This document shows positions 11,728 through 61,612 of a DNA stretch of 64,000 bases, one piece after another. A program made the translations under genes and the position numbers. Under the pieces are notes generated by a model that worked only from the letters and a program-made list of their open reading frames with translations, was not told where the DNA came from and did no database searches. Origin of the DNA: Brachionus manjavacas (Eukaryota > Rotifera > Eurotatoria > Ploima > Brachionidae); NCBI GenBank assembly GCA_019054805.1, contig JAHQIY010000007.1, positions 5,957,501 to 6,021,500 on the forward strand, in the 5' to 3' direction. Positions within the stretch are counted from its first letter, which is position 1. Each line of letters begins with the position of its first letter.

Positions 11728-12036
11728 ATCGCTGATAAATAATATCCTAAAAATGGTATTTTAAACACACGCTATTTAATAATTTCGTAGAATAATAAAA
11801 TCACTTAAAAAAATAATTAATTTTAATTTTTCTTTAGGAGGTATTTAATCGATCACTAATATTTTTCTATCTCTTATTTTACTAAATACCTTTAACTTAT
11901 ATTTATTAATCTGTCTCCTAAATTAAATAAAACAGCAACTAATTTTACTTAAAGTATCTCTTATTTTTATTTATTAAATTGATTTAAAAAAAAAGAATTA
12001 TAAAAAATTTCAAATAATTTCAATAAAAATAATATC

Positions 12037-20704: not shown

Positions 20705-20754
20705 CTAAATAAAAAAAATAATAAAACTAAAAAAATTTGAACAGAAAAATTTAC

Positions 20755-23076: not shown

Positions 23077-23561
23077 TAGTGTTGGGATCCTTACAAGCGG
23101 ACACTTAACCGGCCGAAATTTTTAGAAACCTTGATCGTCTCCGCATTAGCCGGACACCCTTTAAGCGGGCGGTCTATTTTTTGGACCGCCAAATTAAACG
23201 GTCTAAAATATACGGGCGGCCAAAAAACCGGCTAACTTTTTGGCGGTCACTAAAATTTTTGTAAAATTTTGAAAAATAAAAAAAATCTTAAAAAACTTTT
23301 TAATTAAAATAAATAAAGAAATTTTTTTTATCATTTTAATTAGTTTTTTTTTTAAATTAAAAACTTTATTTCGAAAAAAATTCAATTTAAGTGGCCAAAA
23401 TTTTGACCGTCCGTATTTTTGGGCGGGTTTTTTGGCCGCCCGTATATTACAGACAGTTTATTTTGTCGGTCCAAAAATTTGACCGCCAAGCTGACCGGCC
23501 AAATGATCGCAAAAAACCGTCCGTGTTTTGGACCGGTTTGTCTTGACCGTATCCAACACTA
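23077..23561. mobile_element. hAT-like non-autonomous element, copy 1
   Basis: 485 bp starting TAGTGTTGGGAT and ending in the inverse of TAGTGTTGGATAC. The 8-bp flanks TCAATAAC and TCAACAGC agree at 6 of 8 positions, compatible with a hAT-type 8-bp duplication. The interior is rich in inverted GGCCGG, GGCGGTC and GACCGCC motifs. A second copy lies at 53661-54037. The short ORF at 23419-23706 is carried by the repeat and is not a gene. Confidence 0.65.
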
Positions 23562-23967
23562 TCAACAGCCATTGCTAGCTGTGAAATTCGTAATACCAGA
23601 CAGTGAAGCTATTTCAATAGCTTTTGCACTGAACAATTCAGTATTTTTAGGAGTACCAGCAATGTTAAAGTTTTGGACGAAATTTTTTAGGCCTTTGTCA
23701 ATTTGACTTAGTTATAAAGTCGTTTTTAAAGTTTTTTTAAAAGAACTATTACTGGCTTTCGAATTATAACTTTCTAAAATATTTTTCCATTTTGATTAAT
23801 ACATACAACATTTGTGTGACTTTTAAGACAAAATTTCAATGCAATCAAATCATAAGATTGACCTTCATCTAATTCGTCTAGTAAATTTTTTTTGGTTAAA
23901 ATGTCATAATTTTAAGATTAAAAATTAAAGTCATAAACATTAAAAAATTACATAATTATCATGTATA

Positions 23968-24272
23968 ATTCAGAATAAATTTATTAAGATCTCTCTTTGC
24001 GTCTAATTAACCGGATTCCCTAAACCGGGGCTGCGCCCCAGACCCCATTCAATCCCCAGTTTGTTCAAACAAAATTAACCCTGAAATTAACCCTAATTTG
24101 ACAAAGCTCAAGACGCTTAGCGTCGCCTTTCGCTTAGTCAAACTATGGTTAATTTAAGGGTTAATTTTCTTTAACTAAAATTCTACCGGAAATTATTTGA
24201 AAATTTAACAATCATTTAATAGTTGAATAATCGAATAATTGGTAAATATCGAATTTTGTTCATGACTGAAGA
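23968..24272. mobile_element. MITE copy 2, carrying a 100-bp fold-back insertion
   Basis: Same sequence as 11521-11727, with the left terminal repeat missing. After CAAACAAAATT it is interrupted at 24077-24176 by a fold-back sequence: AACCCTGAAATTAACCCTAA is inverted as TTAATTTAAGGGTT, with a GACGCTTAGCGTC palindrome between. AAAATT occurs on both sides (24071-24076 and 24177-24182), and the uninterrupted copy at 11.6 kb has it once. Confidence 0.75.
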
Positions 24273-24692
24273 AAAGTTATTCTTTAAAAAATTCTTCAAA
24301 ACTTTAATCAAAAGTTTTAGATAAATCATGTTGTTCAATATTTCAAAAATTTATTTTCTGTCCTAAGGAAAAAAATTATCTCGAATAAAATTTTAAATTA
24401 AAAATTAATATAAATTAAAATATTTACCTTAAAAAATTATGGTTATTTACCCAGCCAAAAAAGATTATAAATTCATTAATTTGGTGCTTTTTAATAGTAA
24501 AATAAAGAATTTTTTGAAAATTTAATAATTGAAATTAGAAAAAAGAAAGACATCGATTTTAAATGCATAAATTTTTAAATACGTAATTATTCGAATTTAG
24601 TGACATGTTACTAAATCAAATAATGACATGTCAATAAGAAATGATCACTAGTTTTTAAAATAGGAATGTTCAATTTTAATGATATGTCTTAA

Positions 24693-25865
24693 CACTCAAA
24701 AACCGGAGGGTTTTTTTCGACCCTTTTTGTTACTTTGCTCGTTGTTCCAAAAATTTAAACTTTTTTGAAACTAAAATCAAAATCTAAAATCAAAAAAATA
24801 TTATAAATAATCAATTTTGATTACAAATTAATTTTATTTTCATGCTAAAAAAAGTATGCGTTAAACTCGGAGAGGGGTTTTTTGAACCCTCCATAAATAT
24901 TGTCTTTTTTTTGTAAAATAAATCAAAGATATGGCTAATTATGCTTTTGATTCCCAACTCTACTGGATTAATAGAATAAATAGTATTTTTTGAACCATGC
25001 CTGGATGAAAAGCTCTTTAACTTCTTGTGAAGATGATACCTAACCTGAAGTTTTTGATGATAATTAAAATGATTATCAGGAAAATGATGCATTTGTTAAT
25101 AATTTCGAATAATAAATGGAAACATCAAATCAACTTTATACTGAATATGACTCAGATAAAGACTCAGATAATAAATATCCTGAATAAGAAGAAACTAATA
25201 ATGAAAAAACTTCGAAAAAGCAACTATATGGATCATAATGAATGACGGAGAAGGGACAAGTCTCAGAGAAAAGATAAATTTATAATGAGAAAGTTAAGTC
25301 AACAAGCTATGCCTAGCATAAAAAAATGAGACCAAACAGTCAGCATTTTGACTTGTCCATGATAAATTTTTATTGAATTGTAACATTGTAACCCGAAGGA
25401 TGTAGATCCTAAACTTTCTTTTAAAAAGGAGATACATCAGCTTTATCGTGTCTATTATGCAAGAGGTGTTTTATGCCAAAATGTTCCTCTCAAAGCCATG
25501 TGGTCAAGCTCGATTTTTTTCCATTACGGAAAAAAGTTTACTTGTGATAAATGTAAACAATTCAATTGTTTTTGAATCGTTCTGTAAAAATTGTTAAGAA
25601 CCACTAATACGAAAATTTTAGCAAAAATTTTTTTCCTGTATTTATATCAAATTTTTTTTAAGCAATTTTTTCTTAAAAATAGTCAATTTTTGTTTTAGAT
25701 CAAAACCAAATAAATAAAAAAACTTTATTTTTACATTCAGTATATTTTCTTTCATATTTTGAGTAATTATGGTAATTTACTCACCCTAAAAAGCATATTA
25801 TATTGAAAGAGTTATTTGGACCCCTTCAGTACTTAACTTATAAAAAAATTTTCGGTGTTTGAGTC
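24693..25865 (+). mobile_element. piggyBac-like element with decayed transposase
   Basis: TTAA at 24689-24692 and 25866-25869. Left end CACTCAAAAACCGG, inverted right end GACTCAAACACCG. Plus-strand remnants run in the expected order: an acidic N-terminal tract (EYDSDKDSDNKYPE, about 25140-25185, broken by stops), then KKEIHQLYRVYYARGVLCQN VPLKAMWSS (about 25415-25510), resembling the start of the DDE_Tnp_1_7 (piggyBac) domain (EI..L.GL.Y.RG....N....LW). Later catalytic blocks are lost. Dead copy inside intron 1 of kinase gene 2. Confidence 0.65.
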
Positions 25866-26794
25866 TTAAAGAATGACCTATGTTAAGAAAATAAATCCTT
25901 CTTTAACAATTCAATTTTTATATTAGCTTTGACAACTGTTAATACTTTTAAGATGTGTTCACTTTTTATTACATGTCACTAAAATAAACTCTTTTTTAAA
26001 GACATATTACTCAACTCAGATGATTACGTTATTATCGATAGACATTAAAGATGCATCTGGTTTCTTATGATTGTTTTCTTATTGACCAATTTTTTTGATT
26101 TTTATCAATATTTTAATATTTTTTTATTATAATTTTATTTATTTATTCTTTTAAATAAAATAATCTAAACAAATCTATAAATGAGATGGGCTTAAATTAT
26201 TAATTTAATGTTTAATTTTCTAAAAATTGATTGCCAAATTAAGTTATCATCGTAGAACAATAATTATCTAGTAAAAAGGAATGTTTGTGATTTATTTACT
26301 GCTAGATAATTATTAAGTGAATTTTTAGCGGTAAATTTCATTTCTAGGAAACGATCAGAGAACAGAAAAAATTCACTATTGTTCTCACAGAACCATCATT
26401 ATTTTCAAAAGAATCTAAAAAACTTTTTTCAATTAGAAGCGAATTGTAAAAATTAGGAAAATCAAAGGCCAAAAATACTTAACTTTTTGGCAAAGAATAA
26501 TTAGAAATATCATCATTAAATAAATAAAAAATTAAAAATAAAAAAATAAGTTAACCCTAAGCCCGTACAGTCCAGAAATACAAAATTTAGTTGATTAAAA
26601 ATTTGGTTTTAGTCCTGGCCGCTAAACAACGGATAACATTTACTACTTTTGTCTGAAAGCAATCGAAGCATTTGATGGCAGTGAAAAACTTTGTGGGGTT
26701 CATATTTGACATAATGAAAACTTTTGTTATTTTTATTTAAAAAAATAATTAAAAATATTTTCTTAAATAATCTCTAAAACTAAATTTCTATCCA

Positions 26795-27690
26795 AGATCA
26801 GAAGCTCAAGTGCTAAAGCAAAACTTATTCTTGGAATGATAAGAAAATCATTCAAATACCCTGCGATGGAAAAGACAAGTAGCCTTATTATGTTACACAA
26901 ATTTGGACAATATTTATGGATCTTGGGGATTGGAAAACAATTTCTTGTACTTGTCCACGCTGGAAAAAAAATTATATTTGAAAACATGTGCTAGCTATAG
27001 CCTGTCCTGATAAAGATCTTGCTTGGTATTCAAATGCTAAAGATGTTCCTTTAAGTCAAAATCGAATAAAAGAGTTAAAAAAATATGAAATTGAGACTAT
27101 TGACAATTTATTCGAATACAATGATGATGATTCATTAGTTATTGAATACGACAGTAATTCTAGCAATGAGTTTATTAATGATGATGCTGAGAATCTGATT
27201 GTTGAGCAACCGGTTGAAACTATTCTACATGAAATCAACTTTAATTTATCAACAGAGAGGTCGACCGCCTAAAAAAACGAAGATCAAACAACTAACATGA
27301 ATAAAAGAGCCAAAAAAAATAATTTTATTTAATTATTTGATTTTTTTAATATTTTTTTTATTTGTTTATTTATATATCAGAGTAAAAAAAATTGTATTAA
27401 ATTTGTAGCTGAAATTTTTTATTTTTGTAGCTGAAAAAATAATTTAAGTAGCACGAAAAATAGTACCCCGATGGAAATTATTATATTGTTCTTTAGTCAA
27501 GCCTCAATTGGAATATGCAATTGCATCATGATGTCCATATCATGAAAAATTTTAACGAACTTGAAAAAGTCCAACTGAGAGCGACTAAGTTAGTCCCGAG
27601 CTTGCAAGATCCTGATTATTCACATCGTTTATTGAAACTCGGTTTAACTTATCTTAAAATAAGATGACTCCGAGGTTTTAGATTTGATTC
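26795..27690 (+). mobile_element. LINE fragment split by a SWIM-transposase remnant
   Basis: The left piece (26795-26873) encodes AKAKLILGMIRKSFKYPAME. The right piece (about 27465-27690) encodes LYCSLVKPQLEYAIAS and, in another frame, NELEKVQLRATKLVPSL and LLKLGLTYLK. These are consecutive blocks of the CR1/jockey-type C-terminus (compare GMIKKDFNFP...LVRPHLEYA at 57410-57500). Between them sits the remnant at 26880-27300. CGATGGAAA is present at both junctions. Confidence 0.7.
26880..27300 (+). pseudogene. SWIM zinc finger / AT-hook transposase-like tail
   Basis: The plus strand encodes MDLGDWKTISCTCPRWKKN, then YI-stop-KHVLAIAC: a SWIM finger in which the third Cys codon reads TGA (near 26980). 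The ORF 26988-27272 continues with KDLAWYSNAKDVPLSQNRIK and an acidic stretch. One frameshift before its end lies the AT-hook QQRGRPPKKTKIKQ (about 27250-27290). Same family and same order as 1765-2135. Confidence 0.65.
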
Positions 27691-27703
27691 AATTTCAATT
27701 TTC

Positions 27704-27776
27704 AATTTCAAGGTTAATCAACAGGCTAGTGCCCATGCCTCATGAGACCGATTAACACTTCATTTATTTAATTGAT
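27704..27776 (-). repeat. 70-bp dispersed repeat, copy 2
   Basis: Inverted near-copy of 9921-9990 (GATTAACACTTCATTTATTTAA end, CAGGCTAGTGCCC core in this orientation). It sits directly after the LINE fragment. Function and family unknown. Confidence 0.6.
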
Positions 27777-28411
27777 TATTAAAAAAAAAATATATATATA
27801 TATTAAAAGTATAAAAAAATAAAAAAAAATTATAGTAATTAAATAGAGTTATTGATTTAATAGTCATTTGAAAAAATTTAACAACAAGCTATTTAAGTTA
27901 AATAATTCAAATTTAGAAACAAAATCTGTGTAAATTAAATTTATGTTATTGAAAATTGAAAGCTTAAACATTGAAAACTTCAACATTGATCTCTTGATCA
28001 CAAATGCAGTTTATTAATCTTGAATAAAAATGTTCAAATGTTTTTTCTCCACTTTTTGACTTGGCCATTGATTCAATAAGTTATAATTGTTCCTTAAAAT
28101 ATAATTCAAATTTCTTGAGTCATTTTTCTTTAATTTTTCTTTTAGAATTTGCGGAGAATTGAAATTGAAATAATAAATGCAAATTGTCTTAACAGTTTCA
28201 AGGCAAAGATTAATGGCAGTCGTTATAATAAACTTCGCTAACCACCCATTATTAAAGCTTCGCTTGGATAATCTCCAAGTTGAAGTTAATTTTTACTACT
28301 GCTATAAATATGAATTTAAAGTTTTTTCTTGGTTTGGGACAAAACTCGAATTTAGGAATGTTTCATGCATACTTAATAATCATTTAATAAATATATTTTT
28401 AATATTATAGA

Positions 28412-28945
28412 CAGAGTTGTTTAAAAGTCACAAGTCTCAAGTCAAGTCCAAGTCAAGACTTTTTCACTTTTTTTTTTTTATTTTTTAATAAAATTTTTTT
28501 TCTTTTTAAATTTTTAAATAAATTTTTTTTTTTCTTTTTTTAATTTTTAAATAAAATTTTTTTTTCTTTTTTTTTTTATTTTTAAATAAAATTTTTTTTT
28601 CTTTTTTTATTTTTAAATATATTTTTTTTTTTCTTTTTTTAATTTTAAATAAAAATTTTTTTTCTTTTTTTATTTTTAAATAAAATTTTTTTTTTCTTTT
28701 TTTTTAACTTTGAAATAAAATTTTTTAAATTTTTTTTTTTTTACTTTCTTAATTTTCAAATAAAATTTTTTTCTTTTTAACTTTAAATTAATTTTTTTTA
28801 ATTAAAAAAATATTTTTTTTAAATAATAAATATATTAAAATGACTTAAATTTTTATTTTTTTACCTTTTTTTTGGCAGCCCGTTTATTTTAGAAAAAAAA
28901 AAAAATGACGACTTAGACTTTTTTTGGGACTTTTAAACAACTCTG
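28412..28945. mobile_element. hAT-like non-autonomous element with T-rich minisatellite core
   Basis: 534 bp with perfect 18-bp TIRs, CAGAGTTGTTTAAAAGTC, at 28412-28429 and inverted at 28928-28945. Flanking 8-mers ATTATAGA and ATTATAAA differ at one position, as expected for a hAT target duplication. Just inside the left end are AAGTC repeats. The core (about 28465-28800) is a degenerate tandem array of a roughly 30-40-bp unit made of TTTTTAAATAAAA plus a long T run with a single C. Related AAGTC-rich ends occur at 33655, 37988 and 62100. Confidence 0.75.
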
Positions 28946-30047
28946 ATTATAAACCAAAAATAAAACAATCTTAACACGAATATGATAAAAATCATATAAA
29001 GTAATTTATTAACTTTACAATTTGAATTAAATAAGTTCCATTTATTATTTATTAAAAAAACTTAAATATCTAAAAGTATAATTTTTAAACCGTAAGATTA
29101 CATCTATTAAACCGGATGCCATATAAAAAGATCTTTACATCATTTAATTTACCGTTGATAATCTATAAAACGATATTAATATCTGAATAAAAATTCAAAA
29201 ACCTTTTTTAACATTGTTTTAGTTTAATAATTGAAAAAACTCATGAAATTTTAATTTGGCAAAATGATGATCTGTTCCTTGAAAGATTTTTTAAAATTTT
29301 TCTAATAGTATATCATTAGACTCATTTAAAACCCCAAGTATCAAAAGTAAAAATTAATTTTTAAATTATAAAAAAAAAAACTCTAGATTAAATTTAATTA
29401 AAATTTAATTTGAGTTGAATTTCGTTAATAAAATATGCCTTGACACAATCAATTCACTAAAATTTATGAAAAATCACATATTTTTATAAAATTTTAAAAA
29501 ATTAATGACAGGCCATTTATAAATTTAATTTTGATAAAAAATATAAAGGTGATTTTTTAAAAATTCGTATGTATATAAAAGGACATAGAAAATTATATTC
29601 TCCAATAAACCACTTGGTCTTATTTTTCTACCAAGTGTTTGTGTTATGTTAATTTAATAAAAATTTTGCTTTTGTTTTTGTTTTTTTTTGATGATCATAA
29701 TTATTTGATTATTTCTTCAAAGAGAATTATATAAATTAATTAATTTTTTGGTAAATAAATCTATCCTGATTATCTTGGACTTAAAAACAAAAGATCAGTG
29801 AGTTTTTTTTCAATAAAAGGCAATTTTTAGTAGTCTTTAATTGAGCATTAGCATTGAGAAAAATTTTTTGGCGATTTATTAATTTAAAACCAATAATTTT
29901 GACAAAAATCACCAAAATTTGGTATTTTTTGAACAAAGGTAATTTTTCATAATTTTAATTTAAAATTATTATTTTTTTTTAAAGAACGTCTATCAATAAC
30001 AGAATCTCAATAAAAATTATAGCATTATAAAGGCAAAGATTACTCAC

Positions 30048-30473
30048 CCATAATTTTTTCCTATAATAGAACGCTTCATAGAATTCAATTATATTGACAT
30101 GTTTTGAATTGCGAAGGATCTCAACTTCAATGACGTGTTCGGGTATTTCATCGGGCTCACATTTGGAAATAATTTTAGCCGCGGCTATCTGGTCTGTTTG
30201 ACGATTTCTGGCTCGATAAACCTTGCTGAACCCTCCATCTCCGATTTCGTTTAGTACTTCCCATCGATCCTCGGGGTTCACATTTTGTATTAGAAATGGA
30301 TATGAAGTTTCTAGGGTTTTTGGTTTGGAAGACGAAGCGTTAAGAGAAGCCGAAGATTCCGAGGACACAGACGAAAGTCTGTCTTGGTTCCACCTGGATA
30401 TAGCGAAATTCGGCTTTTTTGATTTTAGGAAAAACTTAAATTTTTGTCTTATACCCTTAAGAGGATTTTCCAT
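30048..30473 (-). CDS. SLK-like kinase paralogue (gene 2), exon 1: kinase N-lobe
   Basis: 142 codons from the ATG at 30473. A basic, Ser-rich N-terminus (MENPLKGIRQKFKFFLKSKK, then a Ser run) is followed by WEVLNEIGDGGFSKVYRAR. The Gly-rich loop has Ser where gene 1 has its third Gly. AAAKIISK carries Lys100 and EHVIEVEIL the alpha-C Glu. The exon ends after KKLW at TGG|GTGAGT (30048/30047). Two other splice joints follow at 21306 and 20704. Divergence from gene 1 is large, so this is an old duplicate. Confidence 0.92.
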
Positions 30474-31314
30474 GATCAGTCAGACAGATTTTTTCTGGAG
30501 GAAAAAATTTTATGAATTAAAAAATAAATTATCTAAATATCAAGGTTTGTTGAAGCATGCCAGTTCCAAGCTTAAATAAAATTAATTAAATTTTGCAAAA
30601 ATATTTTACAATTTTAGCAAACAAAACAACAAGAACTTGAAAAGATAGTTTATTTACTTTAACTATTTTACATAATTTCAAATTGTTGAATTATGATATG
30701 ATAATTTGAAATTTTTTTATTTTTTTTCAACTCGTTTTTCGAATAGATCCATTTTCGCTTATTGAAAAAAATCTTTTTAAAAGGTTAGAAACAAAATTTC
30801 GCCTTCGATCTGATCCGATATGGCGATTGATAGAAAAAAAAGGTAAATATTTATCGTTAAGCATTCCAGTTGTTCAAAAATTTACTATTTAACTTAGTTT
30901 GGTTATATTTATGTAATATTATAAATAAAGACTTAAATTTCTGTGTTCGACCCCAAATTAATTTGCGAATCTCTAGATTATTTGTGCAATTTAACTTATC
31001 CTTGAAGATTAAGAGCAATTGTTTAGCATTTTTGTTTGTAATGCAACTGACTTTTTAGACTGGGTGTTATTTTTGTATACAAAATTTTTCTTAGTTAATT
31101 AATGAATCTCTTACCATCAAACGATGGCTTTACGATATTAGTTTAAATTATAGTGAATTGAAAAATAATGAATGAAAATGTGGGTTTTTCATAAGTTTTA
31201 TTTAAAAAAATAACGAAGTATTCAATCATTTATTTCATTTGAAATTAGCAAAAAAAAATTATAAAATAAACATTAAATATTCCATTAGTACAATGTATAA
31301 TTTAATTAGTTGAA
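30474..31314. other. Short intergenic gap between kinase genes 3 and 2
   Basis: 841 bp that must hold the 3' end of gene 3 and the promoter of gene 2. A candidate polyadenylation signal for gene 3 (AATAAA on the minus strand) lies near 31228-31234, about 80 bp after its stop. No transposon was recognised. Confidence 0.5.
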
Positions 31315-31470
31315 CTAGCTTTCCAAAAAGTATCTATAAAGAAAAGAATTCCTTTCCGAAATTGAATCTGAAAATTTTGTCAAAAGATTTTTAAATTCAT
31401 CCGTATGACTTGAAGTATCGCAATTTTTCGATACATCATCGCGAATAACAAGATCACTTAAAAATGGATG
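31315..31470 (-). CDS. Short SLK-like kinase (gene 3), terminal exon
   Basis: 51 codons and a TAG at 31315-31317. Acceptor TTTTTAG|CATCCATTT (31471/31470), phase 0, joining ...SQLLL to HPFLSDLVIRDD; HPF is the conserved end of the kinase C-lobe. A 47-bp intron separates it from exon 1. The tail (SKNCDTSSHTDEFKN, ISERNSFLYRYFLES) is unlike that of gene 4 and has no motif I recognise. Too short to appear as an independent ORF; called from splice signals, frame and homology of the HPF joint. Confidence 0.85.
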   Translation of the reverse strand, partial: HPFLSDLVIRDDVSKNCDTSSHTDEFKNLLTKFSDSISERNSFLYRYFLES

Positions 31471-31517
31471 CTAAAAAAAGTTCTTAATTAAAAATAAAAT
31501 TTTTAAAAATAAATTAC

Positions 31518-32471
31518 TAGAAGAAGTTGAGAGGCATTTGGTCGCGCCTTTGGACTCTTAACAAGACATTGGGCTACAAAATCCTGAAAAAATGCGGACC
31601 ATTCATTTGGTTCCTTGAGTTTGGGCGATTTTTCATTTTTAATCATTTTCATGGCATCTTTAGGCTTGAGTGAAGTGTTTGGTGGTTGCTTTTCAGCCAA
31701 TTCAATACATGTAATACCCAGTGACCAAATGTCAGCCTTGTAATTGTATTTGGTGAATTTGTGCGACGAGCAACTGATTACCTCTGGCGAAACCCAATAC
31801 GGCGAGCCTGTAAACGTGGACTTTTTTTGCTCAAGATATTGATTTTTTGTCGAAACTCCAAAATCAGTCAATTTTATGGTGCCATCTTGTGTTACCAGAA
31901 TATTGGCTGCTTTTATGTCCCTGTGAATAACAAACAGATTTTCGTGCAAGTACAATAAGCCTTCCAGTATTTGTTTGACTATGCATTTCAATTCATTTTC
32001 TGTCAAATCTCTGTCCAAGTCATTTATGAGTGTTTCCAAAGAGCCCAAAGCACAATATTCCATAATTAGATAAATTTTTTCATTATGCATGAAAGCGTCA
32101 TAGAATTGAACAATATTTTTGTGGTTACATTTGTTCAATATTTCCAGTTCAATTAGAAGCTGATCAAGAGCCAGGTTCTCGTTCATGTTTAGTATTTTCA
32201 TAGCAGCTGGCTTATCATCTTCAACATTTATGCATTTGAATATTTTGCCAAAAGATCCAACTCCAATTATGTCTGATTTTTTCCAGTGTTTCTCCGGATC
32301 TATGAACTTGATCTTAAACATGCTGAAAACATGCTTGTTTTTTAAAATATTGGTATGAGATTTATTACATCTATTAAAATCACTTTTATTTTTAGACGAA
32401 ATTGCTGATATTTTTATTTCAGGCACAAATTTTTTTACTCGGGACCTTAAATTTTCCATTTTAAAATTCAC
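31518..32471 (-). CDS. Short SLK-like kinase (gene 3), exon 1: whole kinase core
   Basis: 318 codons. ATG at 32471, with a second in-frame Met four codons later. After a basic N-terminus the kinase runs HWKKSDIIGVGSFGKIFKC (Gly-rich loop), AAMKILNM (Lys92), IHRDIKAANILV (Asp185), LTDFGVSTKN (Asp203), [26 protein letters not shown]. The intron at the hinge seen in genes 1 and 2 is absent (KIYLIMEYC is continuous). The exon ends at QLLL before GTAATT (31518/31517). The segment 31514-32300 is 99.5 percent identical to 40218-41004 in gene 4. Mature protein about 369 aa, kinase domain plus short tails. Same general family as SLK, but AAN rather than AGN and a shorter build place it apart. Confidence 0.92.
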
Positions 32472-32676
32472 ATAAAAAAAATATATTTCGACTTGTTTGA
32501 ATTTTAGTTATAGAATTTTCGATTCAAAACATTTGATTTATTCAAGTTCTTCAAACAAAAAATTTACCTTAATATTATTTTGAATCTTTCTAAATGAAAA
32601 GTGAAATTATGATTGATTTTATTCTAAAATTATTATAAAATCATTTTCGTACGACTAACTTTTCGAATTTGATTTC

Positions 32677-33178
32677 TTTGATGCTTAAACGAGGAATGGA
32701 CAATTCATAATTCATTTTTTTCATAGAAAACTTAAGTCATAGAAAAATAATTGATAGAATACCTTTATTAATTATTCATAGAAAAAATATTCGTAGAAAA
32801 GATTGTCATAGAATAAAATTACATAGAATTAAGTCAATTGATTAATTAATAAAAAAATAAAATAAAATGTTATCAATTATCTAATTTTGACAACTAAGCA
32901 ACAATTTTTTTTCTCGACTTATTGATGTTATAGACTTTATCATTGATCAAATTAGCCAATCCACCCAAAAGCAAACTCATATTTTCACTTGCTTGCAATA
33001 TATATTTGAAGTGAGAAAATCATAAAAGAGAAATATTCTATGAAAAAAAATACTACGAGTTTAATCCTATGAGAATTTTTTCGATGAAAACATCATTCTA
33101 TGATTTTTTTCTTCTATGAGTTTACATTCTATGAATATTGTTTTTTATGAGATGTCACTTCATCGCTTAAACGGGCAA
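32677..33178. repeat. Fold-back element built of inward-facing TCATAGAA motifs
   Basis: Both ends carry CGTTTAAGC-type sequence (GCTTAAACG near 32682 and 33163). Inside, TCATAGAA or CGTAGAA-like units recur at short, irregular spacing over the left 150 bp, and their inverse (TTCTATGA) over the right 150 bp. No coding sequence. It lies just upstream of gene 3. The same design with another motif occurs at 41925-42585. Confidence 0.6.
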
Positions 33179-33360
33179 AGTAAAATTTTTGTTCAATTTT
33201 TAATTTGCTCTTTTTGCTCAAAAATTTCAAATGCGCAATTTACACAGTTTTTGACAAAAAAAATATTTATTACGACAAAACTATTCAAAAAATAATAACA
33301 AAGTATAATTTGTGGTGACAAAAAGAAAATTTTAGTAAAAATTAAATAATTAAACAATTT

Positions 33361-33480
33361 TATTTTTTTTCATGGTCTGCCAGATTTTTTTTCGGCGGCT
33401 CTTGAGCTACCATCGATTGATCGGATTGAATTGGAATCGTTACTTGTTCATGGTTGCTTTCTTCAACATCTAGAAAAACA
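33361..33480 (-). pseudogene. Transposase-like tail (AT-hook type), remnant
   Basis: The minus strand reads VFLDVEESNHEQVTIPIQSD and then QEPPKKNLADH; a one-base shift would turn the end into a KKKSGRP-type AT-hook. It resembles the tails of the SWIM family at 12040-12080 and 27250-27290. Only about 120 bp are recognisable. Confidence 0.35.
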
Positions 33481-33515
33481 TCATTAACAATGGTCTTTAT
33501 ACTTGATCAATCCGA

Positions 33516-33863
33516 TTTTGACTTTTAGTTTGTGATATGATGATCCTTTGGATAATATTTGTTCAAAAACTATCTTCGCTCTGTTTTGCAAATTTTATAA
33601 ATTGAGTTTTTGTTAAAATGCATCAAATGAATGTAAATTATCAATTTAGTTAAATTCAGAGTTATTTTTTAAGTCACTTGTCTCAAGTCAAGTCAAGTCA
33701 ATGACTTAAAATTTTTTTTCATTTTTTTTCATGATTTTTTTTGGATTAATTAAAGAATCATATTTATTTTTTAGTTTTAAAATCAGAAAATTACTTGACT
33801 TAACTAAACTTCACTAAAAAAAAAAAATTAAGTCATAACTTTTATTTAAATTTTTGTGACTTG
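33516..33863 (+). repeat. 348-bp duplicated block, copy 1
   Basis: Nearly identical to 37846-38194, with a few substitutions and A-run length changes. The first 130 bp (TTTGTGATATGATGATCCTT...) have no known family. The rest begins CAGAGTTATTTTTTAAGTCA and carries AAGTC repeats, so it belongs to the CAGAGTTG hAT-like family of 28412-28945. Confidence 0.75.
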
Positions 33864-34334
33864 AAACGATTGAATTGAAATGAACTTCACAACCCCAAAA
33901 AGGAGCTTAAATATCTGCTAAAAGAAATGAATATTAGCTGTTTGTTTTATTTCTTTTTGGTACCTTACCCCCTCCTTTTTTTTTCAAAATAATCTTGAAA
34001 ACATGATAAATAAGTATCTTAAAGATGGCTTTTCAAATGGAAAATCAAAATCTATTGAAAAAATATTCTACATGATCTTTGAGAAAAAAACTAAAGTTAA
34101 AATCAATCTTGATCTAAAATTTAATGATTTAAGATCAAGATTGATTTAATTTAATTCTATTTAATGAAAAAATGCTTTCAATGACATTGTTTGACCTAGC
34201 AGCTTGACAAATCTCTATTTTTTTATCACGATTTTTATTACCTTTATTATTATTACTTTATTCTTATTATCTTATTTAAAAAAAAAATACCTTTTTTAAA
34301 TGATTTATGTATGCTTGGCATTACATTAAAATAG

Positions 34335-34425
34335 GTAAAATCTCCTCCAAAGTCACCAGATTAGAATTCTATCGAAATGATTTGGAATGAATTGAAATAA
34401 TTTGTGAGAAAGAGAAATTACGTGA
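34335..34425 (+). pseudogene. Tc1/mariner transposase remnant
   Basis: The plus strand encodes SPPKSPD-stop-NSIEMIWNELK-stop-FVRKR, the block after the last catalytic Asp of Tc1/mariner transposases (W.P.SPDLNPIE..W). The Leu codon is a TAG and a second stop follows. A similar block, less decayed, is at 55690-55848 on the other strand. Confidence 0.7.
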
Positions 34426-34477
34426 AATTACGTAAAATTACGTGAATTTAAATTACGTGACGAATCAGTACTGTATT

Positions 34478-34530
34478 TTTATTCTGAAGGAGCATTAGCT
34501 CAGTACAAATTTACAAATAAAAAATTAAAA
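34478..34530 (+). repeat. SINE/LINE-tail-like short repeat
   Basis: TCTGAAGGAGCATTAGCTCA followed by GTACAAATTTACAAATAAAAAA. Same family as 5545-5592, 50510-50575 (inverted) and 56138-56190 (inverted). Confidence 0.45.
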
Positions 34531-35588
34531 AAACAAAGGAAAATAATATAAAATATCATGTTCAGTCACCATTTTAGAAAACCAATTTACTGATATACCT
34601 AAAGTCGCTTAGCGGTACCAAAAAACAAGAAAAGTATTAGCAAATTATATGAATATCACCAAAAATGTGAGTCATTAAATGAATATTAAAGATTAATTAA
34701 AAACCATCATGAAGAAGAAGAGGAACCAATTTCAAAATGAGCAAGATTGAAGGCAAACAATGAAAATACAAACAAGCAAAATTGTGTGATCATTGAAGCG
34801 CATAAATAAAGAAAAAACGCTACTGGCCTTGTCCGAACAAATGTGGAAAAAATAAAAAAAATTAAGTCTCAGAATTTAAAAAATTTTTTTTCTTTTTATA
34901 ATATTCTAATAAAATATGGGGAATAACTTAAAAAATTTGGTGTGTTTTATTTGTGGTATTCGAACCAAACTTCCCTTTTTTTTACTTTCTTTAAAACAAA
35001 AAAATGTTTTCAAATTTAGCTATAGAAATGGAAGTAGAATAATTAGAGTGGTAGCATTTAGAATAAACTGGTGGTATATTTTAAGAAAAAAGTGACGGTA
35101 AATAAATTAAATTAAAGAAAAGCAAAATAAATTAAAAATAAATTGATATTTTGAAAATTTTTAGGATTAAAATCAAAAAAGGTTTTATTTTATCAGAAAA
35201 AAAATTATTATAAAAACCTATTATTTAGTGCTGCTTCTAACGATATTCGATCTTTTCTCTAAATTTGAAATTTTAATTATTTTATTCCTTTTATTTACGT
35301 ATAAAAAATTTTGTTTCAGAATTTTAAACAGTAATTTTTAAAATAATTGCAAATAATTAATAATCAAATAAAATGAGAATCAATTTAATAAAATAAATTT
35401 TGCCACAATTTTGGCTTTATGCTTCACCGACGCAAAAATAATCTCATTAAAAAAAGTACAAATTAATTAAAAAAATATCTATTTTATAATAAAGATAAAT
35501 ATGAAATAAAAAGTTAAAATGGCAAAGTAAAATTTAAAATTTTCAATTTGCTCTTTTTTCTCAAACCAAGGAACTGTTGTGAAAATAC

Positions 35589-35885
35589 TTGCCCCAGTTC
35601 GCCCAGTTGTCCGACAAATTTCCATTGATCACAGCCTGCATTCGCATATTTCAGCAAAGTTCGAATCAAATGGACCTGAAGCAAAAAGAGTTGGACTTGT
35701 CGCTGAAATTGGAGGCTGGCCAAGCAGCTGGTTACCTTGAGTTTGCGCAGTGTGTCACTGAAATCAAGCGAAGGAATAACTTTGAGATGGTGAGTGACAA
35801 GCTGAGGCCTGTGCTTGTAAGCAACCTTGACCAGTTGATGCCAAGACCGGATTTACTGGCCCGATTGGTGCCTTTTTTCAGCTAG
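35589..35885 (+). CDS. Unrecognised GC-richer ORF, possible exon or retroposed fragment
   Basis: 98-codon ORF (MPQFAQLSDKFPLITACIRI...NLDQLMPRPDLLARLVPFFS). The stretch 35570-35950 is clearly richer in GC than its surroundings and looks coding-like, with helical, Leu/Gln-rich composition. Frame continues upstream without a Met to about 35562. I do not recognise the family. There is no flanking homologous exon, and continuation after 35885 needs a frameshift, so it may be a captured or dead piece of a host gene. The opposite strand is also open over much of it (35514-35723, 35853-36053), so strand is uncertain. Confidence 0.3.
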   Translation: MPQFAQLSDKFPLITACIRIFQQSSNQMDLKQKELDLSLKLEAGQAAGYLEFAQCVTEIKRRNNFEMVSDKLRPVLVSNLDQLMPRPDLLARLVPFFS

Positions 35886-36576
35886 TGCTCGGCTGTAGAG
35901 AAATAGTTCGATGCGGACTTGATGTATTTGTCTTAAGGATGAAGATGGCAGCCACTGGCTTTTTGGAGAATGTTTTGGGTAAAAAAAGTATTGTTTTGTT
36001 GGGTCAGCTTCAAAAAAGGTCAAAAAAGTATTGTTTTGAAAAAAAAGAGACAATTTGAGCTTGATGAGGTCGAATAGGACCGTTTTTAAGCGCTTATAGA
36101 CCCGTCCAGCGATTTAATGTTTTATTCTAGCTTGTTGAATACCAATGTGGACTTAAATCTGTTTGGTACTTGTTTCTTTAGTATTCAAAATTTAAACTGA
36201 TATTCATTTTTCAATTTTCCTCTTCAATTTATTTTATTATAAAAAAACAAATAATAGAATTGAAAACAATTTCTGAGTCATGATGAATTCCCTTGGTCAG
36301 GTAGAAAATATTGAAGGATAAGTGAAATCAAATTTTAAAATTTTATTCATTTAATATAAAACATTTAATTTTTGTCAAAAAATTTCTAAGAGAATCATTA
36401 GTTCTAATTTACGAACTTTATTATTTAGCCTTTTCGAATCTAATCGACATTTTAAATCTTTCTTTTGACTATTTTGTACATATTTTGCAGTTTTTGTCTA
36501 TTTAGTGATAAAAATGAGACAATTTGATCATGAACACTTCTGTTTAAAAATTATAATTTTTAAAGCTTTTTTAAAA

Positions 36577-36795
36577 CTAAAATTGACAGACTTTTAAAAA
36601 ATTCTGTTTTTCCGGTATTTGAGGTAATGTTTTTTTCTTTACATTCAAAAGAATATCTATCGCATGTAATTTTTTTAAATCATTGCAAACATTTGAAAAC
36701 TGTGTATCCGATTCTTTGTTAGTAAATTTATCCATATTGAATAATTGGTTTACCATTTCAAAAATTGTTTTATCAACATTGCCAAGAAATGGGTG
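36577..36795 (-). CDS. Short SLK-like kinase (gene 4), terminal exon
   Basis: 72 codons and a TAG at 36577-36579. Acceptor TTTTTAG|CACCCATTT (36796/36795), phase 0, giving SQLLL|HPFLGNVDKT, the same joint as in genes 2 and 3. The tail (IFEMVNQLFNMDKF, NVCNDLKKLHAID, LPQIPEKQNFLKVCQF) differs from gene 3. The link to exon 1 at 40222 spans 3.4 kb. It is supported by frame, by the conserved HPF start and by the lack of a closer candidate. Alternatively gene 4 reads through its donor and ends at 40156. Confidence 0.75.
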   Translation of the reverse strand, partial: HPFLGNVDKTIFEMVNQLFNMDKFTNKESDTQFSNVCNDLKKLHAIDILLNVKKKTLPQIPEKQNFLKVCQF

Positions 36796-37689
36796 CTAAA
36801 AACAGGCAAAGTTTAGATTAAGAATAATTTTTCGTAAAAACAATTTAATTCATAAAATATAAGTTTATAAATAAGAATAATCAATTTCTTCTATAGAACT
36901 ATTAATTGATAATTCTGCATTCCATAATTACTTTGAGCGAAAAGAGTTGAAAAAACAAATGGCTAAGTAACATTAAAAATTTAAACTTAATTTTTTTATT
37001 ATTTATCTTCTGGTCACATATTACCCCTTCGAAAATTAGGTGACTATAGAACCAAATAATTTAGTTGATTTTTTAATTATTTTCTATCATCAAAATATAA
37101 TTTTTGATTATTTAAAAAAAAATTACAGAGCTAAATATATTTGTTCACTTGAAAAAAAAAATTGATTATTTCTTAAATCAATTAGGTCGAAAGGCTCAAT
37201 GAATTTTTTGTTCATGTAACACAATTTCAAAGCAAAAAAAAATTTCGAAATTGATTTAATCAGAGACTTTGTTATCAGAAGAGAATTGAAAAAAATATGG
37301 AGAAGTAATTATATAATTTAGAACTTATTTTTTTAAATATTAAAATGATTTTTTTTTTGGATTTTTAACAATATTTTTTTTAAAAAGTTCAAAATTTCAA
37401 TCCTAATTTGGATTGCTTTTGCAACCATGTCTCTCAGAAATATTAACCAATTTTTCTAAAATCAGTTCAATGAAATTTGTTTTCGCTCAGTTTTTCGGTC
37501 AGCTCGTTTTATTTAATAGTATCTAATTTTTACTAGGTAAGAATATTGCAGATATTTATTTTTTGTAGTAAAATTAATCGATTAGAAGATAAATTCATTC
37601 TTCAGTAGTTAAATGTTTTAGTTAAAAGTTAACATTTGTTTTTTTTAAAGAAAATTTTTGTAATTAAACCAAACCGTGTAAATTAATTA

Positions 37690-37825
37690 ATATATGGTTT
37701 AATTTTTTGTGTTTGAACTACAAAATGTATTCAATGTTGAAATAACATTGAAAAAGTTCCATGTTTCAGATATTTTTTTCAGTTTCAAAAAAAAAATTTT
37801 AAGTTAAAATTGCAAGCAAAAAAAA
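37690..37825 (+). repeat. Dispersed repeat with CAATGTTGAAATAACATTG, copy A
   Basis: TTTTGTGTTTGAACTACAAA, then the hairpin CAATGTTGAAATAACATTG, ending in AAAATTGCAAGCA. Found inverted at 38975-39115 and again in plus orientation at 55935-56040. The three copies share both ends, which defines a unit of about 110-140 bp. Confidence 0.6.
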
Positions 37826-37845
37826 CTCTGTTTTTTTTTAATAAA

Positions 37846-38194
37846 TTTTGACTTTGAGTTTGTGATATGATGATCCTTTGGATAATATTTGTTCAAAAAC
37901 TATCTTCGCTCTGTTTTGCAAATTTTATAAATTGAGTTTTTGTTAAAATGCATCAAATGAATGTAAATTATCAATTTAGTTAAATTCAGAGTTGTTTTTT
38001 AAGTCACTTGTCTCAAGTCAAGTCAAGTCAATGACTTAAAATTTTTTTTCATTTTTTTTCAAAATTTTTTTTGGATTAATTAAAGAATCATATTTATTTT
38101 TTAGTTTTAAAATCAGAAAATTACTTGACTTAACTAAACTTCACTAAAAAAAAAAAAAATTAAGTCATAACTTTTACTTAAATTTTTGTGACTT
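37846..38194 (+). repeat. 348-bp duplicated block, copy 2
   Basis: Partner of 33516-33863. It lies in the intron of gene 4, while copy 1 lies upstream of gene 3. It could be a dispersed element or a scar of the duplication that produced genes 3 and 4; the distances to the genes do not match, which favours the former. Confidence 0.7.
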
Positions 38195-38974
38195 AGACTT
38201 AAAACTGTGACTTAATAACAAGTCTGGTTAAATTTATAAAGAAAAAAAATGAAGTTTTTCGGGTCTAGTCGGTTAGATGAACTATGTTTCACCTGTTACT
38301 GAAAAAATTCTTGTTCTGAGGTTTTATGAACTATTAGTTCACCAGATCTAAAAATTGTTTTCCTATTTTGAAATTTTTTTATCTATTTAAAAAAAAGCTA
38401 AAAGTAATATTCAAAAATAAAATAGAAAAAAGAATAATTACAAAAAAAATTAAAGTTAGGCAGAGTAGGCAAAATTTGCGAAAAAGATGAATCTGTCATA
38501 CCCTTGGTCATATCTACAACTTCTTTACATAAATATAATATCTTGAAAACAAAGTAACTTAATAATATTTTAAAAGATGTCGTTTTTAAATATTGAAAGT
38601 TGATTGTGAAAACTTTATTTATTTGTTTAATCTTTTATTATCAATAAATGAACAAGCCAGCTACTAAGGAGAGAAGTATATTCTACTTGGACTCACTGGA
38701 AAGTGAAAAAAAATATTCTTTTATTAATCCTTGCTTGTGTCACCCATTTGTTGGCGTGAGAAACTAATTGAAGGGTGAAAAATTAATTTTAATTATCTTT
38801 AATTTTTATGATTTTTGTTTAAAGGCAAAGATTTAAGTAGAGAGCGCATTTGCGTATTTGGAATTGTTGAAAGGCACTTCAGCAATTTCAATTAAAAAAA
38901 GAATTTTCAATTTTTTTTCAAATTCCCAAATAAAAATTAAACTCATTCTATTTTACTTAAAAGTTTAATTTAAA

Positions 38975-39115
38975 AAATGACAATGCTTGCAATATTAACT
39001 TAAAATTATTTTTTTTTTGAAATTGTAAAAAATATTTGAAATATCGCACTTTTTCAATGTTATTTCAACATTGGATACATTTTGTAATTCAAACACAAAA
39101 AATTAAACCATATTC
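38975..39115 (-). repeat. Dispersed repeat with CAATGTTGAAATAACATTG, copy B
   Basis: Inverted relative to copy A at 37690-37825. The two copies, about 1.15 kb apart, could pair in the transcript of gene 4. Confidence 0.6.
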
Positions 39116-39648
39116 ATTCAGAAATTTTTTGTATCCAAAAATAAGATATATAAATCTTTTAGCTTTTTCTATCCATTTGTGAGAAATAAAATTAACAAAG
39201 AACTTTTAATATTTAATTTTAAAATTAAAATTATATCGCCAGAATTTGCGTCAATTGAATAAAAAAAAAAAGAAAAGAAAATTTTACCAATAATTATGAA
39301 ACGTTTATAAACCAGATACGAAATAGTCAGACATAATTCAAGTATACACCAAAAAATTCAAATTAAAAAATATTACGAATGATACTCAAGTTAGGTTGTA
39401 AATTAATTTATGTAATCTAAATTTAAGATAATATTAGAAAATTTACCGAAAGAAATCTTGATTTCCTTTAAAACATTTAATACTAATTTACATGAAAACA
39501 AAACTTTTCAGCATATTCATTTTTCATTCCAGCACATTATACTCATTAGCACATTTGTTGCTGAAAAACATACCAACCTTTTTAAAACAATCAAAAAACT
39601 GTAAAAAATACAGAATTTTTGAAATATTTAGTTTAAATAATAAAAGTA

Positions 39649-39876
39649 TGACTGTGCTGGAAATTAACTTGTTACATCATATCATACGATAAGATTTAAT
39701 ATCAGGAAAAAAAAACTTTCCAAATTTTTTCATTTAGAAATTCAAATTTTAATTCACTTGATATTATCTAATATCAAATGATAAAAGCTGATATCAGCTG
39801 GTATGAAGAAAGCTTAGAAAAATGATATTAAATGATATTAGATGATATGATGTGACAAGTAAATTTCCGGCACTGT
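39649..39876. mobile_element. MITE with about 40-bp imperfect TIRs
   Basis: Left end CTGTGCTGGAAATTAACTTG and inverted right end CAGTGCCGGAAATTTACTTG, both continuing into CATCATATCAT. The interior is rich in GATATTA units. No coding sequence. CAGTGC-type ends suggest a hAT relationship, but no clear 8-bp duplication was seen. Confidence 0.6.
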
Positions 39877-40221
39877 AATTTTAGTCAATTTACAATTAAA
39901 TATTTAATAAAAATTTAAATCAATTTTTTATCAATTCACTCGCTGCTTTTTTTGACCAACGCTGCTTTTTTTCTTATAAAGACAAGGAAGGAATACTCAT
40001 TATTTGGTTTTACAATTCCCATTTACTTCAAATACTCTTTGGCGAATTATTTGCCTTAGGGCAATTATTCAAATGAAAATTCTGGAAGATTTTATAAGTA
40101 AATACTTAAAGCATATTAATTAAATTTTAATGTGTTATTAATGTATTGAGTATGTTTATAAGGCAAACGTTCTACGAATTGATGAATTAAAAGAAAAAAA
40201 GTTGCTTAAAGAAATATTTAC

Positions 40222-41232
40222 TAGAAGAAGTTGAGAGGCATTTGGTCGCGCTTTTGGACTCTTAACAAGACATTGGGCTACAAAATCCTGAAAAAATGCG
40301 GACCATTCATTTGGTTCCTTGAGTTTGGGCGATTTTTCATTTTTAATCATTTTCATGGCATCTTTAGGCTTGAGCGAAGTGTTTGGTGGTTGCTTTTCAG
40401 CCAATTCAATACATGTAATACCCAGTGACCAAATGTCAGCCTTGTAATTGTATTTGGTGAATTTGTGCGACGAGCAACTGATTACCTCTGGCGAAACCCA
40501 ATACGGCGAGCCTGTAAACGTGGACTTTTTTTGCTCAAGATATTGATTTTTTGTCGAAACTCCAAAATCAGTCAATTTGATGGTGCCATCTTGTGTTACC
40601 AGAATATTGGCTGCTTTTATGTCCCTGTGAATAACAAACAGATTTTCGTGCAAGTACAATAAGCCTTCCAGTATTTGTTTGACTATGCATTTCAATTCAT
40701 TTTCTGTCAAATCTCTGTCCAAGTCATTTATGAGTGTTTCCAAAGAGCCCAAAGCACAATATTCCATAATTAGATAAATTTTTTCATTATGCATGAAAGC
40801 GTCATAGAATTGAACAATATTTTTGTGGTTACATTTGTTCAATATTTCCAGTTCAATTAGAAGCTGATCAAGAGCCAGGTTCTCGTTCATGTTTAGTATT
40901 TTCATTGCAGCTGGCTTATCATCTTCAACATTTATGCATTTGAATATTTTGCCAAAAGATCCAACTCCAATTATGTCTGATTTTTTCCAGTGTTTCTCCG
41001 GATCCGTTATCTTGATTTGAAACAAATCAAAACCATGCTCGGGGATGCTTGTTCTTGATATTTTAGATATATTATCTTTTCCAAATCCTTTTTTTTCAGA
41101 TATTTTCTTTTTAATTTGATGATATAATTTGCACATTTTTGCTAAGAATAAATGATTTATAATTTTGTTAAATTTATGAAAATCAACTAGTTTTCTTGAA
41201 TTATTCAAGTGTGTCTTAGCTGTCATATTCAT
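40222..41232 (-). CDS. Short SLK-like kinase (gene 4), exon 1: whole kinase core
   Basis: 337 codons from the ATG at 41232. The basic N-terminus (MNMTAKTHLNNSRK..., KLYHQIKKKISEKK) is unrelated to that of gene 3, up to the common motif F.IK..DPEKHW. From there the kinase is identical in protein sequence to gene 3: GVGSFGKIFKC, AAMKIL (Lys111), IHRDIKAANILV (Asp204), LTDFGVSTKN (Asp222), GSPYWVSPE. The exon ends at QLLL before GTAAAT (40222/40221). The four differences from gene 3 within 787 bp are all synonymous. Catalytically complete. With the exon at 36577-36795 the protein is about 409 aa. Confidence 0.92.
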
Positions 41233-44831: not shown

Positions 44832-46094
44832 CTAATAAATTGGTGAATTGGGCTCGAATTTTTTTCTTTTAAAGTTACCAGATTTTCTTAAACAACTCTT
44901 CATGAGACCCTTGTGCAGATACTCCTTGAAGTTATAGGTAAAAAGCATGTACAAAGCTGGATTGGTAACTGTGTTGGAATACGACAATGTGCTCACAATC
45001 ATATTTATGATTTGGATATTTTCGTAGGACGTTGTCGAAAACAAAACAAATGCTTGAAAAATCCAAAACGGAGACCACTGTAACAAAAACAAAAATATGA
45101 TTGCTAGAACCAAAACTATAGCTTTACGACGAACACTGTTCACAAATTTTCCACTTGATTTTATTGACACACTTCTTCCATTTTTGCAGTAGAAAATTTT
45201 TCTGCAACACATGATAATACAACATGGACCCGAGCTGGAACTCGTTGAGCTAATTTCATCTTTAAAATCTTTAAGTCCCATTTCTAGGCTCATATTCATG
45301 GCTGGCAATGACTTGGACAGCTTCAATTTTGATTCATCAATAACACTCTTGAACATGACAGGCCGATTTTTTAATCTCAATGCATGCCGCTTTTGTTCTC
45401 CAAATACTTCCCTTTTCTGGCTTGATTCATTGAATTTTCTCTTCCATCTGTTCAAAAAAAGCAGCAATTTAAGAGAACTGACAATAATTATAAAATAGGG
45501 AACTATGAATATAACGACCAGCTTGCTTATGAAAAATAATCTAATGGTCGAATCGCTCCACTCACTTTGGCAAACATTTTTTATTTTTTTTATACTAAAA
45601 ATTAGAGGAAACGACAAGGCAAATGAGAATAGCCAAATGGTTACACAGTACAAAATTATGACCAGCAGCTTGAACTTATTACTAAATGAATCCAGTATTT
45701 TTTTCTTGTCTGTCACATCGAGAAACCTCTCGACACTGAGCGCTGCTACAGTAAAAATGCCCACTATGACTCCATTGAATTCAGTGAATAAGAACAGTCT
45801 GCATCCGTACAGGCCAAGAGATTGGCGATAATTAAGAATTTGGCTGACAAAAAATGGAATTCCCAGTGAATAAGTCAGATCGGCAAAACCAAGGTTAATT
45901 ATTAAAATATTAATTGGGGTGTATGCTTTGGCAGTGAGGATGCTCGTGATTGATATGCTGTTAAAGGTTATAGCCAGAGTGAAGATTAGAATTAAAACAG
46001 CAGTGAATATGAACAAAGATTCGAATGCTGGTTGACTAGTGTATATTATTTCTTCGTCATTTTCAATGCTTGAGTTAAAATTTTCGACATTCAT
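44832..46094 (-). CDS. Class A (rhodopsin-like) G-protein-coupled receptor, peptide-receptor type
   Basis: Single-exon gene, 420 codons from the ATG at 46094. Seven membrane segments are visible: about 26-52, 60-83, 102-124, 141-166, 185-214, 323-352 and 362-387. Signatures: LGFADL in TM2 (the conserved Asp), Cys98 at the top of TM3 pairing with Cys175 in loop 2, SVERFLDV in place of DRY at the end of TM3, FLLQWSPFW in TM6 and NTVTNPALY (NPxxY) in TM7. The short N-terminus has a possible glycosylation site (NSS, 7-9). The third intracellular loop is long (about 215-322), Ser/Lys-rich, with a CC...CC cluster. The pattern suggests a neuropeptide receptor of the somatostatin/galanin/allatostatin kind; the ligand cannot be told. 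A plasma-membrane, G-protein-coupled role is inferred. Confidence 0.9.
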   Translation of the reverse strand: MNVENFNSSIENDEEIIYTSQPAFESLFIFTAVLILIFTLAITFNSISITSILTAKAYTPINILIINLGFADLTYSLGIPFFVSQILNYRQSLGLYGCRLFLFTEFNGVIVGIFTVAALSVERFLDVTDKKKILDSFSNKFKLLVIILYCVTIWLFSFALSFPLIFSIKKIKNVCQSEWSDSTIRLFFISKLVVIFIVPYFIIIVSSLKLLLFLNRWKRKFNESSQKREVFGEQKRHALRLKNRPVMFKSVIDESKLKLSKSLPAMNMSLEMGLKDFKDEISSTSSSSGPCCIIMCCRKIFYCKNGRSVSIKSSGKFVNSVRRKAIVLVLAIIFLFLLQWSPFWIFQAFVLFSTTSYENIQIINMIVSTLSYSNTVTNPALYMLFTYNFKEYLHKGLMKSCLRKSGNFKRKKFEPNSPIY

Positions 46095-47289
46095 TGTCTT
46101 TAAAATAGTTAATTAGTTCTGTTAATAAATGCCTGCTTCATTTTAATTAGAAAATGTCTAATCTAAATGAAGAAAAATTAAGAGATTAAAGATCTTTTTT
46201 TGTTTTTTAATTTTTCCAAAGGTGGCTTTAATCCTTGGGATAAATGGTAAATCTAATTAAATTCAAAACTTGTTCATTTAGTAGTTTTCGCACATGAATC
46301 CAAATCTAAATCTAAATTTCGCTCGATTTTAATCTCTTCTTTTATTTTTAAATCTTTTTGCCGTAAAAATGAAATAATGTTAAAAAAATTATTATTTTTT
46401 CTTTATTGTTAGACAAATTTTATAAATTTTTAATCATACAAAAGATTATTTTAATTAGATGTATATAAAATTTTAAAAAAAGTCAGATTATTTTTATTCC
46501 AGTATATTATTTTTTTATGTTAACTAATAAAAAGGGCTTGTTCTAATCAATGAGAAATCAAAATTATTTGATATCTAAAAAAAAAAAATATCTTAGAAAA
46601 ATTAAAGAGTCTCTTTAACCACCACGCACTCGACTATGGCCAATATGCATTCAATTTTGGTTTTTAAAAAAAAAAGCCTCATTCACTTGAAGACTCTACA
46701 AATTTTCAATAAAAAAAAAATTAAATTGATAATATCAATTCTGTTATAAAAATAAATTTAGAAAAAGAATGGAATTCTAAAAGAAAGAAAAAAAAGTAAT
46801 TTTTGTCTGACCATAATTTTTTGAATTTTATATTTAAATTTCTCAAACGGAAACTAAATTTTCTAGATGAAAAGTTTTTGTTCGTCCCCTGACTTTGCTT
46901 GTACCTAAAGCTCTATTGAGTCGTTTAAGCTGTCAATTAAACGCGATTTTACAAAAAGAAGATAGCTTAGCATATTAAAATTTTAAGATCGATTACGAGA
47001 TCTAGTCAAATACTATTAAACTAATCTGGACGAATTAATGCAGCTTTGTTAAAATTTATTAATATTTTTTAAAAATTAATGAATTTATAATAGTTGAGCG
47101 TAAATTGTAAAATTAAAATGGCAAATAATGTATTACCTCGTTCGATTATGCTGCACTACAAACTAATGCACGCTTTTGGACCAAGAACCAAAGCAAATCT
47201 CGCTCATGCTAAAACATTTTGATTTAGAACACATGGTCTAATAGTGTTATCACGGGCTTAGGGCCGCATTAAACTCTGAAATTTTTAAT
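46095..47289. other. Region upstream of the GPCR gene
   Basis: AT-rich, containing the GPCR promoter. At 47225-47280 a short plus-strand stretch (ATTATCACGGGCTTAGGGCC-like) matches, in opposite orientation, the LINE coding block at 48040-48085, so it is a LINE scrap. The GC-richer 47110-47220 before it is unassigned. Confidence 0.35.
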
Positions 47290-61554: not shown

Positions 61555-61612
61555 CTTAAAATTTAAAGTTAGTTTTATTGATAAAATTGATTAGGAATTT
61601 TTGTTCGCATAC

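Follow-up and report, generated by a model that had tools for sequence, protein, structure and literature searches.

Genes 3 and 4 share a near-identical exon tract

In a 64,000-nucleotide stretch of the Brachionus manjavacas genome (assembly GCA_019054805.1, contig JAHQIY010000007.1, positions 5,957,501 to 6,021,500; hereafter the window, whose own numbering is used throughout), two kinase genes on the minus strand, here called genes 3 and 4, hold a tract of 787 bases that is almost the same in both. Exon 1 of gene 3 (31518-32459) has 314 codons and encodes an N-terminal extension followed by a kinase domain (Pfam PF00069). An intron of 47 bp (31471-31517, GTAA...TTTAG) separates it from exon 2 (31318-31470), which begins with HPFLSDL and runs to a stop codon. 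Exon 1 of gene 4 (40222-41136) comprises 305 codons if the start is taken at MCKLY, an upstream ATG being possible; its intron (36796-40221) is about 3.4 kb long and contains a dispersed element, and its exon 2 (36580-36795) begins with HPFLGNV and again runs to a stop codon. The gene models were read from the sequence with splicing inferred from GT-AG ends, and both genes are presumably transcribed and spliced as modelled. Exon 2 of either gene follows a phase-0 intron and starts with HPFL, with which kinase domains usually end.

The two copies of the tract (31514-32300 in gene 3, 40218-41004 in gene 4, both minus strand) lie 8.7 kb apart. Each covers the kinase domain, beginning shortly ahead of the glycine loop and running to where exon 1 ends, and consists of 783 coding bases plus the GTAA of the intron. 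Alignment of 787 with 787 bases revealed no indel and exactly four mismatches (31548/40252, 31671/40375, 31875/40579 and 32202/40906). All four (GCT/GCA, ATA/ATC, TCA/TCG and AAG/AAA) are synonymous third-position differences. By eye, the glycine loop, AAMK, HRD and DFG are intact in the tract of both genes.

Counted in 20-base bins, identity is about 100% inside the tract; on both sides, some 20-40 bases suffice for it to drop to background. The exon-side edge lies at the GAT of DPEKHW, beyond which homology is recognisable but old, and in frame: positions 32301-32345, the 5' flank of the gene 3 tract, correspond to 41005-41049 of gene 4 with 25 of 45 nucleotides identical (18 of 20,000 codon shuffles). 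The intron-side edge lies at the splice donor, with GTAA included. Since GTAA is also the splice-donor consensus, the real edge on this side may be the end of the exon. Past this intron-side edge, introns of 47 bp and 3.4 kb face each other, and apart from HPFL the last exons have little in common. A first-pass annotation had described two tracts of equal length without indels and with four synonymous differences, one edge four bases into the intron, the other inside the exon amid older diverged homology, and flanking exons and introns that are unrelated or strongly diverged. This description held throughout, with the proviso that the four intron bases may be mere consensus.

Among solved structures, the kinase domain of gene 3 is closest to SLK (E 5.8e-74) and then to STK10 (LOK), the next group following at 6.7e-57. 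This comparison was run for gene 3 only; the gene 4 tract encodes the identical protein sequence. Pfam gave no match at E up to 0.1 for exon 2 of either gene, thus none to the C-terminal PKK region (PF12474), which was found in two open frames of gene 1. Since genes 3 and 4 as modelled lack PKK and further exons are possible, we call them SLK/LOK-like (Ste20 group) kinases as judged by the kinase domain only. Also on this strand are genes 1 and 2 (2660-14311 and 20330-30479), two longer genes for SLK/LOK-like kinases; their first exons lie about 6 and 9 kb from their C-lobe exons, and gene 1 has a PKK region.

When the 114-Mb home genome was searched, full-length copies of the tract were found at two places only, both in the window. 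The best match after these lies on the same contig (69% identity over 533 bases) and belongs to a third paralogue with 59% amino-acid identity (locus L007, hereafter gene 5). For the 3' flank of gene 3 (30480-31513), a single match was found across the genome, and two other searched flanks match in full only at their own place, which argues against a second haplotype copy. Further matches of these two flanks (the best 40 of 171 and the best 40 of 150 candidates) are partial and many-copy, and fall on stretches more than 380 and more than 600 bases away from the tract edge.

Divergence inside and outside the tract

Within the tract, we counted four synonymous changes at 159 sites, that is, a corrected synonymous divergence (dS) of 0.026 (interval of the raw rate 0.007-0.064) and a nonsynonymous divergence (dN) of 0 (Nei-Gojobori). 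The probability that all four changes are synonymous in the absence of selection is about 0.0017. In the N-terminal part of exon 1, 44 aligned codons give a dS of about 1.2, near saturation, and a dN of about 0.69. Third positions mismatch at 4 of 261 sites in the tract versus 21 of 42 in the aligned N-terminal part. Gene 5 is saturated at synonymous sites within the tract when compared with either gene.

We then aligned genes 3 and 4 with gene 5 as the outgroup (367 variable columns) and permuted the columns in the manner of GENECONV. The tract was matched in 0 of 20,000 permutations for all sites with either mismatch penalty, and in 0 of 20,000 for third positions alone. Chance is excluded as the source of the identity. 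Both the alignment with an outgroup paralogue and the permutation test at third positions bear out the conversion-like character that the first-pass annotation had ascribed to the tract.

Judged from the alignment, the upstream edge of the tract falls within old homology. The in-frame continuation HxFxxFxIKxxDPEKHW is identical at 21 of 33 bases; 2 of 20,000 codon shuffles scored at least as high. When the N-termini were aligned locally without constraint, the signal was weaker (protein 60 of 2000 shuffles, coding DNA 4 of 500, its last 60 bases 5 of 500). On the downstream side, alignments do not rise above shuffles, and any homology there would rest on the HPFL motif and the intron position. 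In gene 5, by reading, an intron interrupts the coding sequence at this phase-0 position too, and the exon behind it starts with HLFI.

Guanine-cytosine (GC) content at third positions is raised in the tract: 97 of 261 versus 25 of 104 in the rest of gene 3 (p = 0.019), 98 of 261 versus 27 of 116 in the rest of gene 4 (p = 0.0065), and 97 of 261 versus 66 of 263 in the kinase domain of gene 5 (p = 0.0034). We did not count GC-biased conversion as independent support, since values of 0.32-0.42 are also reached in four stretches picked roughly from genes 1 and 2.

Origin of the tract

Had the genes arisen by a simple duplication as young as the tract, their neutral flanks would be about as alike as the tract itself. 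They are unlike (dS about 1.2 upstream in the same exon against 0.026 in the tract, introns of 47 bp against 3.4 kb, last exons with little but HPFL in common), which disfavours such a duplication and agrees with the preference for conversion already voiced in the earlier annotation. As modelled, each gene has its own N-terminus, its own intron at the same place and its own HPFL exon. These features suggest that genes 3 and 4 probably both encoded kinases already when the copying took place, which favours conversion over the insertion of an exon copy. Recent ectopic (interlocus) gene conversion within an old tandem pair is thus very probably the best explanation of the tract.

Several observations weigh against this conclusion. 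The 33-base figure for the upstream homology is the best of seven lengths; the other six gave 18 to 609 of 20,000 shuffles (609, 125, 18, 160, 404 and 329 at 15, 24, 45, 60, 90 and 120 bases, respectively). Local alignments of gene 3 with gene 4 were not above shuffles for exon 2 (471 of 2000), the intron starts (51 of 500) or the 600 bp of 5' noncoding sequence (209 of 500), and the N-terminus and exon 2 of gene 5 align with neither gene above shuffles (399, 1851, 1870 and 1640 of 2000). The sole outgroup, gene 5, is a paralogue from the same genome. It allows two of the four differences to be polarised, and at both the change fell in gene 4; this dates mutations rather than the copying and so does not single out a donor.

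If a copy of the kinase exon had been inserted beside unrelated sequence, a chimeric gene would have arisen where no kinase had stood before. Such a recombined or partial duplicate would fit the exon 2 and noncoding-flank alignments that stay within the range of shuffles, and a nearby stretch of about 350 bp resembles a local copy of this kind. It does not account for the in-frame homology upstream of the tract or for the HPFL exon behind a phase-0 intron at the same place, an arrangement which the outgroup likewise has with HLF: an inserted fragment would have had to regain both its N-terminal similarity and an HPFL exon by luck. We consider this origin unlikely. Another route would be cDNA-templated conversion, in which the exon is rewritten from a reverse-transcribed spliced message. 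The tract ends at most four bases from the end of the exon, as expected from such a template if GTAA is mere donor consensus, and genes 3, 4 and 5 lack a kinase-domain intron that is apparently present in genes 1 and 2, pointing to a possible past intron loss. Exon 2, however, was left unrewritten, and unlike introns would by themselves halt a DNA-templated tract at the same place. Moreover, in the MEK-type kinase pair described below, near-identity also extends over roughly the second half of an intron that separates two homogenised exon parts. A cDNA template therefore appears very improbable to us. Finally, the identity could stem from the assembly, by way of a collapsed, chimeric or over-polished repeat, since short-read polishing can homogenise near-identical repeats. 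But the copies retain four differences and distinct flanks, polishing is not expected to rewrite sequence that differs at half of its positions, and a contig of 6.4 Mb in an assembly of 61 contigs suggests long reads. An artefact is, in our estimate, very improbable.

The nearby stretch is a second same-strand copy between genes 3 and 4 (33515-33862 versus 37845-38194), in which 343 of 350 aligned columns are identical (98%). It holds a repeat-in-repeat junction, and only these two places in the genome match it at up to three mismatches. Its divergence (5 of 348, interval 0.005-0.034) is compatible with the age of the tract, and the stretch was probably copied locally from the intron of gene 4 to a site upstream of gene 3. 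We rejected one tandem duplication for both the tract (A) and this stretch (B), since the order is A-B-B-A and not A-B-A-B. The repeat adjoining 33515-33862 ends at about 33517 in all three copies checked for an empty site. This dispersed repeat (33252-33517, about 266 bases), which abuts the copied stretch, has at least 12 relatives of 80-90% identity among the matches listed. The element in the gene 4 intron (about 37692-39113) is likewise dispersed and has terminal inverted repeats; its pieces match many places in the genome (at least 223 matches among the best 40 of 2898 candidates).

Under gene conversion, genes 3 and 4 would be old tandem paralogues of an SLK/LOK-like (Ste20 group) kinase. 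A recent break or lesion in one of them may have been mended with the other, 8.7 kb off, as the template for about 783-787 bases, synthesis-dependent strand annealing being the likely repair route. Copying would have halted where the genes stop being alike, in the variable N-terminal coding sequence at one end and at the unlike introns at the other. The outcome would be two genes with an identical catalytic domain and different tails. DNA-templated repair ending where likeness ends appears to be the simplest mechanism.

Neighbouring features, other kinase pairs and known systems

Beyond the kinase genes, the window contains a single-frame rhodopsin-family receptor (44832-46112, PF00001), the C-terminal part of a dynein heavy chain (59507-61555; PF03028, PF18198 and PF18199) and an inverted repeat (49401-49631 and 49881-50111, 98.7% identity over 231 bases). 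tRNA and Rfam scans of the window gave no match.

Searching the genome with the gene 3 kinase yielded at least 35 matches at E up to 1e-20 (among the best 126 of 252 candidates). We retrieved 30 matching loci, with L022 and L031 representing a single gene, and compared them all against all together with three neighbouring 10-kb stretches around gene 5 (33 loci, L005-L037; cut-off at least 85% identity over at least 100 bases). One further close tandem pair was found: L017 (C2:4588022) and L025 (C2:4583031), on the same strand and 5 kb apart, both nearest to MEK1-type kinases among solved structures. L025 is degenerate, with HNN in place of HRD and DIE in place of DFG. Between L017 1562-2442 and L025 1601-2475, two homogenised tracts flank a strongly diverged catalytic and activation-loop segment. 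The exon alignment contains identical runs of 110 and 137 bases versus a maximum of 68 in 5000 codon-column shuffles, and identity in the catalytic and activation-loop part between these long runs is 22-67% (12-codon bins). A third identical run of 32 bases is not unusual (565 of 5000 shuffles). The second tract extends into the intron, the first part of which differs, and on into the next exon.

Conversion-like tracts are thus seen in two tandem kinase pairs of this genome, and the sharp tracts of the MEK pair count in favour of conversion between genes 3 and 4. It is conceivable, if doubtful, that ectopic conversion repeatedly acts domain by domain on tandem kinases, keeping the scaffold identical while selection protects the paralogue-specific tails (SLK/LOK-like) and the catalytic and activation loops (MEK). 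Clear edges, and a degenerate MEK with a catalytic loop of its own between two homogenised stretches, allow a test of whether selection determines where conversion stops. Long matches of 87-88% were also obtained for two other pairs: L026 (C3:236744) and L028 (C3:188834), in opposite orientation and 48 kb apart (87% identical over 1344 bases), and L014 and L021, on different contigs.

Conversion gives old paralogues a young look, and gene trees built from the kinase domain would misdate the duplication of genes 3 and 4. Expression or knock-down probes placed within the tract would not distinguish gene 3 from gene 4. Among the papers listed in literature searches, none deals, as judged by title and start of abstract, with the locus or with conversion between such kinase paralogues.

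With SLK and STK10 (LOK), genes 3 and 4 share the kinase domain, these two being the nearest solved domains to gene 3; unlike them, and unlike gene 1, they lack as modelled the long C-terminal part with the PKK domain. Several published accounts document partial conversion of tandem paralogues amid diverged surroundings, most directly in medaka and newts (PMC6389941, PMC8476164, PMC4467073, PMC8423806, PMC3464624). The tandem LWS opsin genes of medaka, for which non-allelic gene conversion is described, are likewise an old pair with an almost identical coding part, their first intron and most intergenic DNA being too diverged to align (PMC6389941). There, however, the tract extends from exon 2 to exon 6 with introns and a sister species was used, whereas the tract of genes 3 and 4 covers part of one exon and was set against a paralogous outgroup. 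In newts, conversion is reported between sodium-channel paralogues and between duplicate exons; as here, it was confined to exon parts of tandem copies and GENECONV permutations were used, but some newt events carried resistance changes, whereas the gene 3/gene 4 tract holds no amino-acid difference (PMC8476164). Bdelloid rotifers have homogenised alpha-tubulin copies, which the authors read as consistent with conversion (PMC3464624). Those within-species copy pairs are, like ours, much closer than expected; the authors set them beside collinear gene pairs, whereas genes 3 and 4 are tandem paralogues 8.7 kb apart. Set beside these systems, the locus adds a clean case, with unusually clear edges, to those already known for this process and does not represent a new kind of event.

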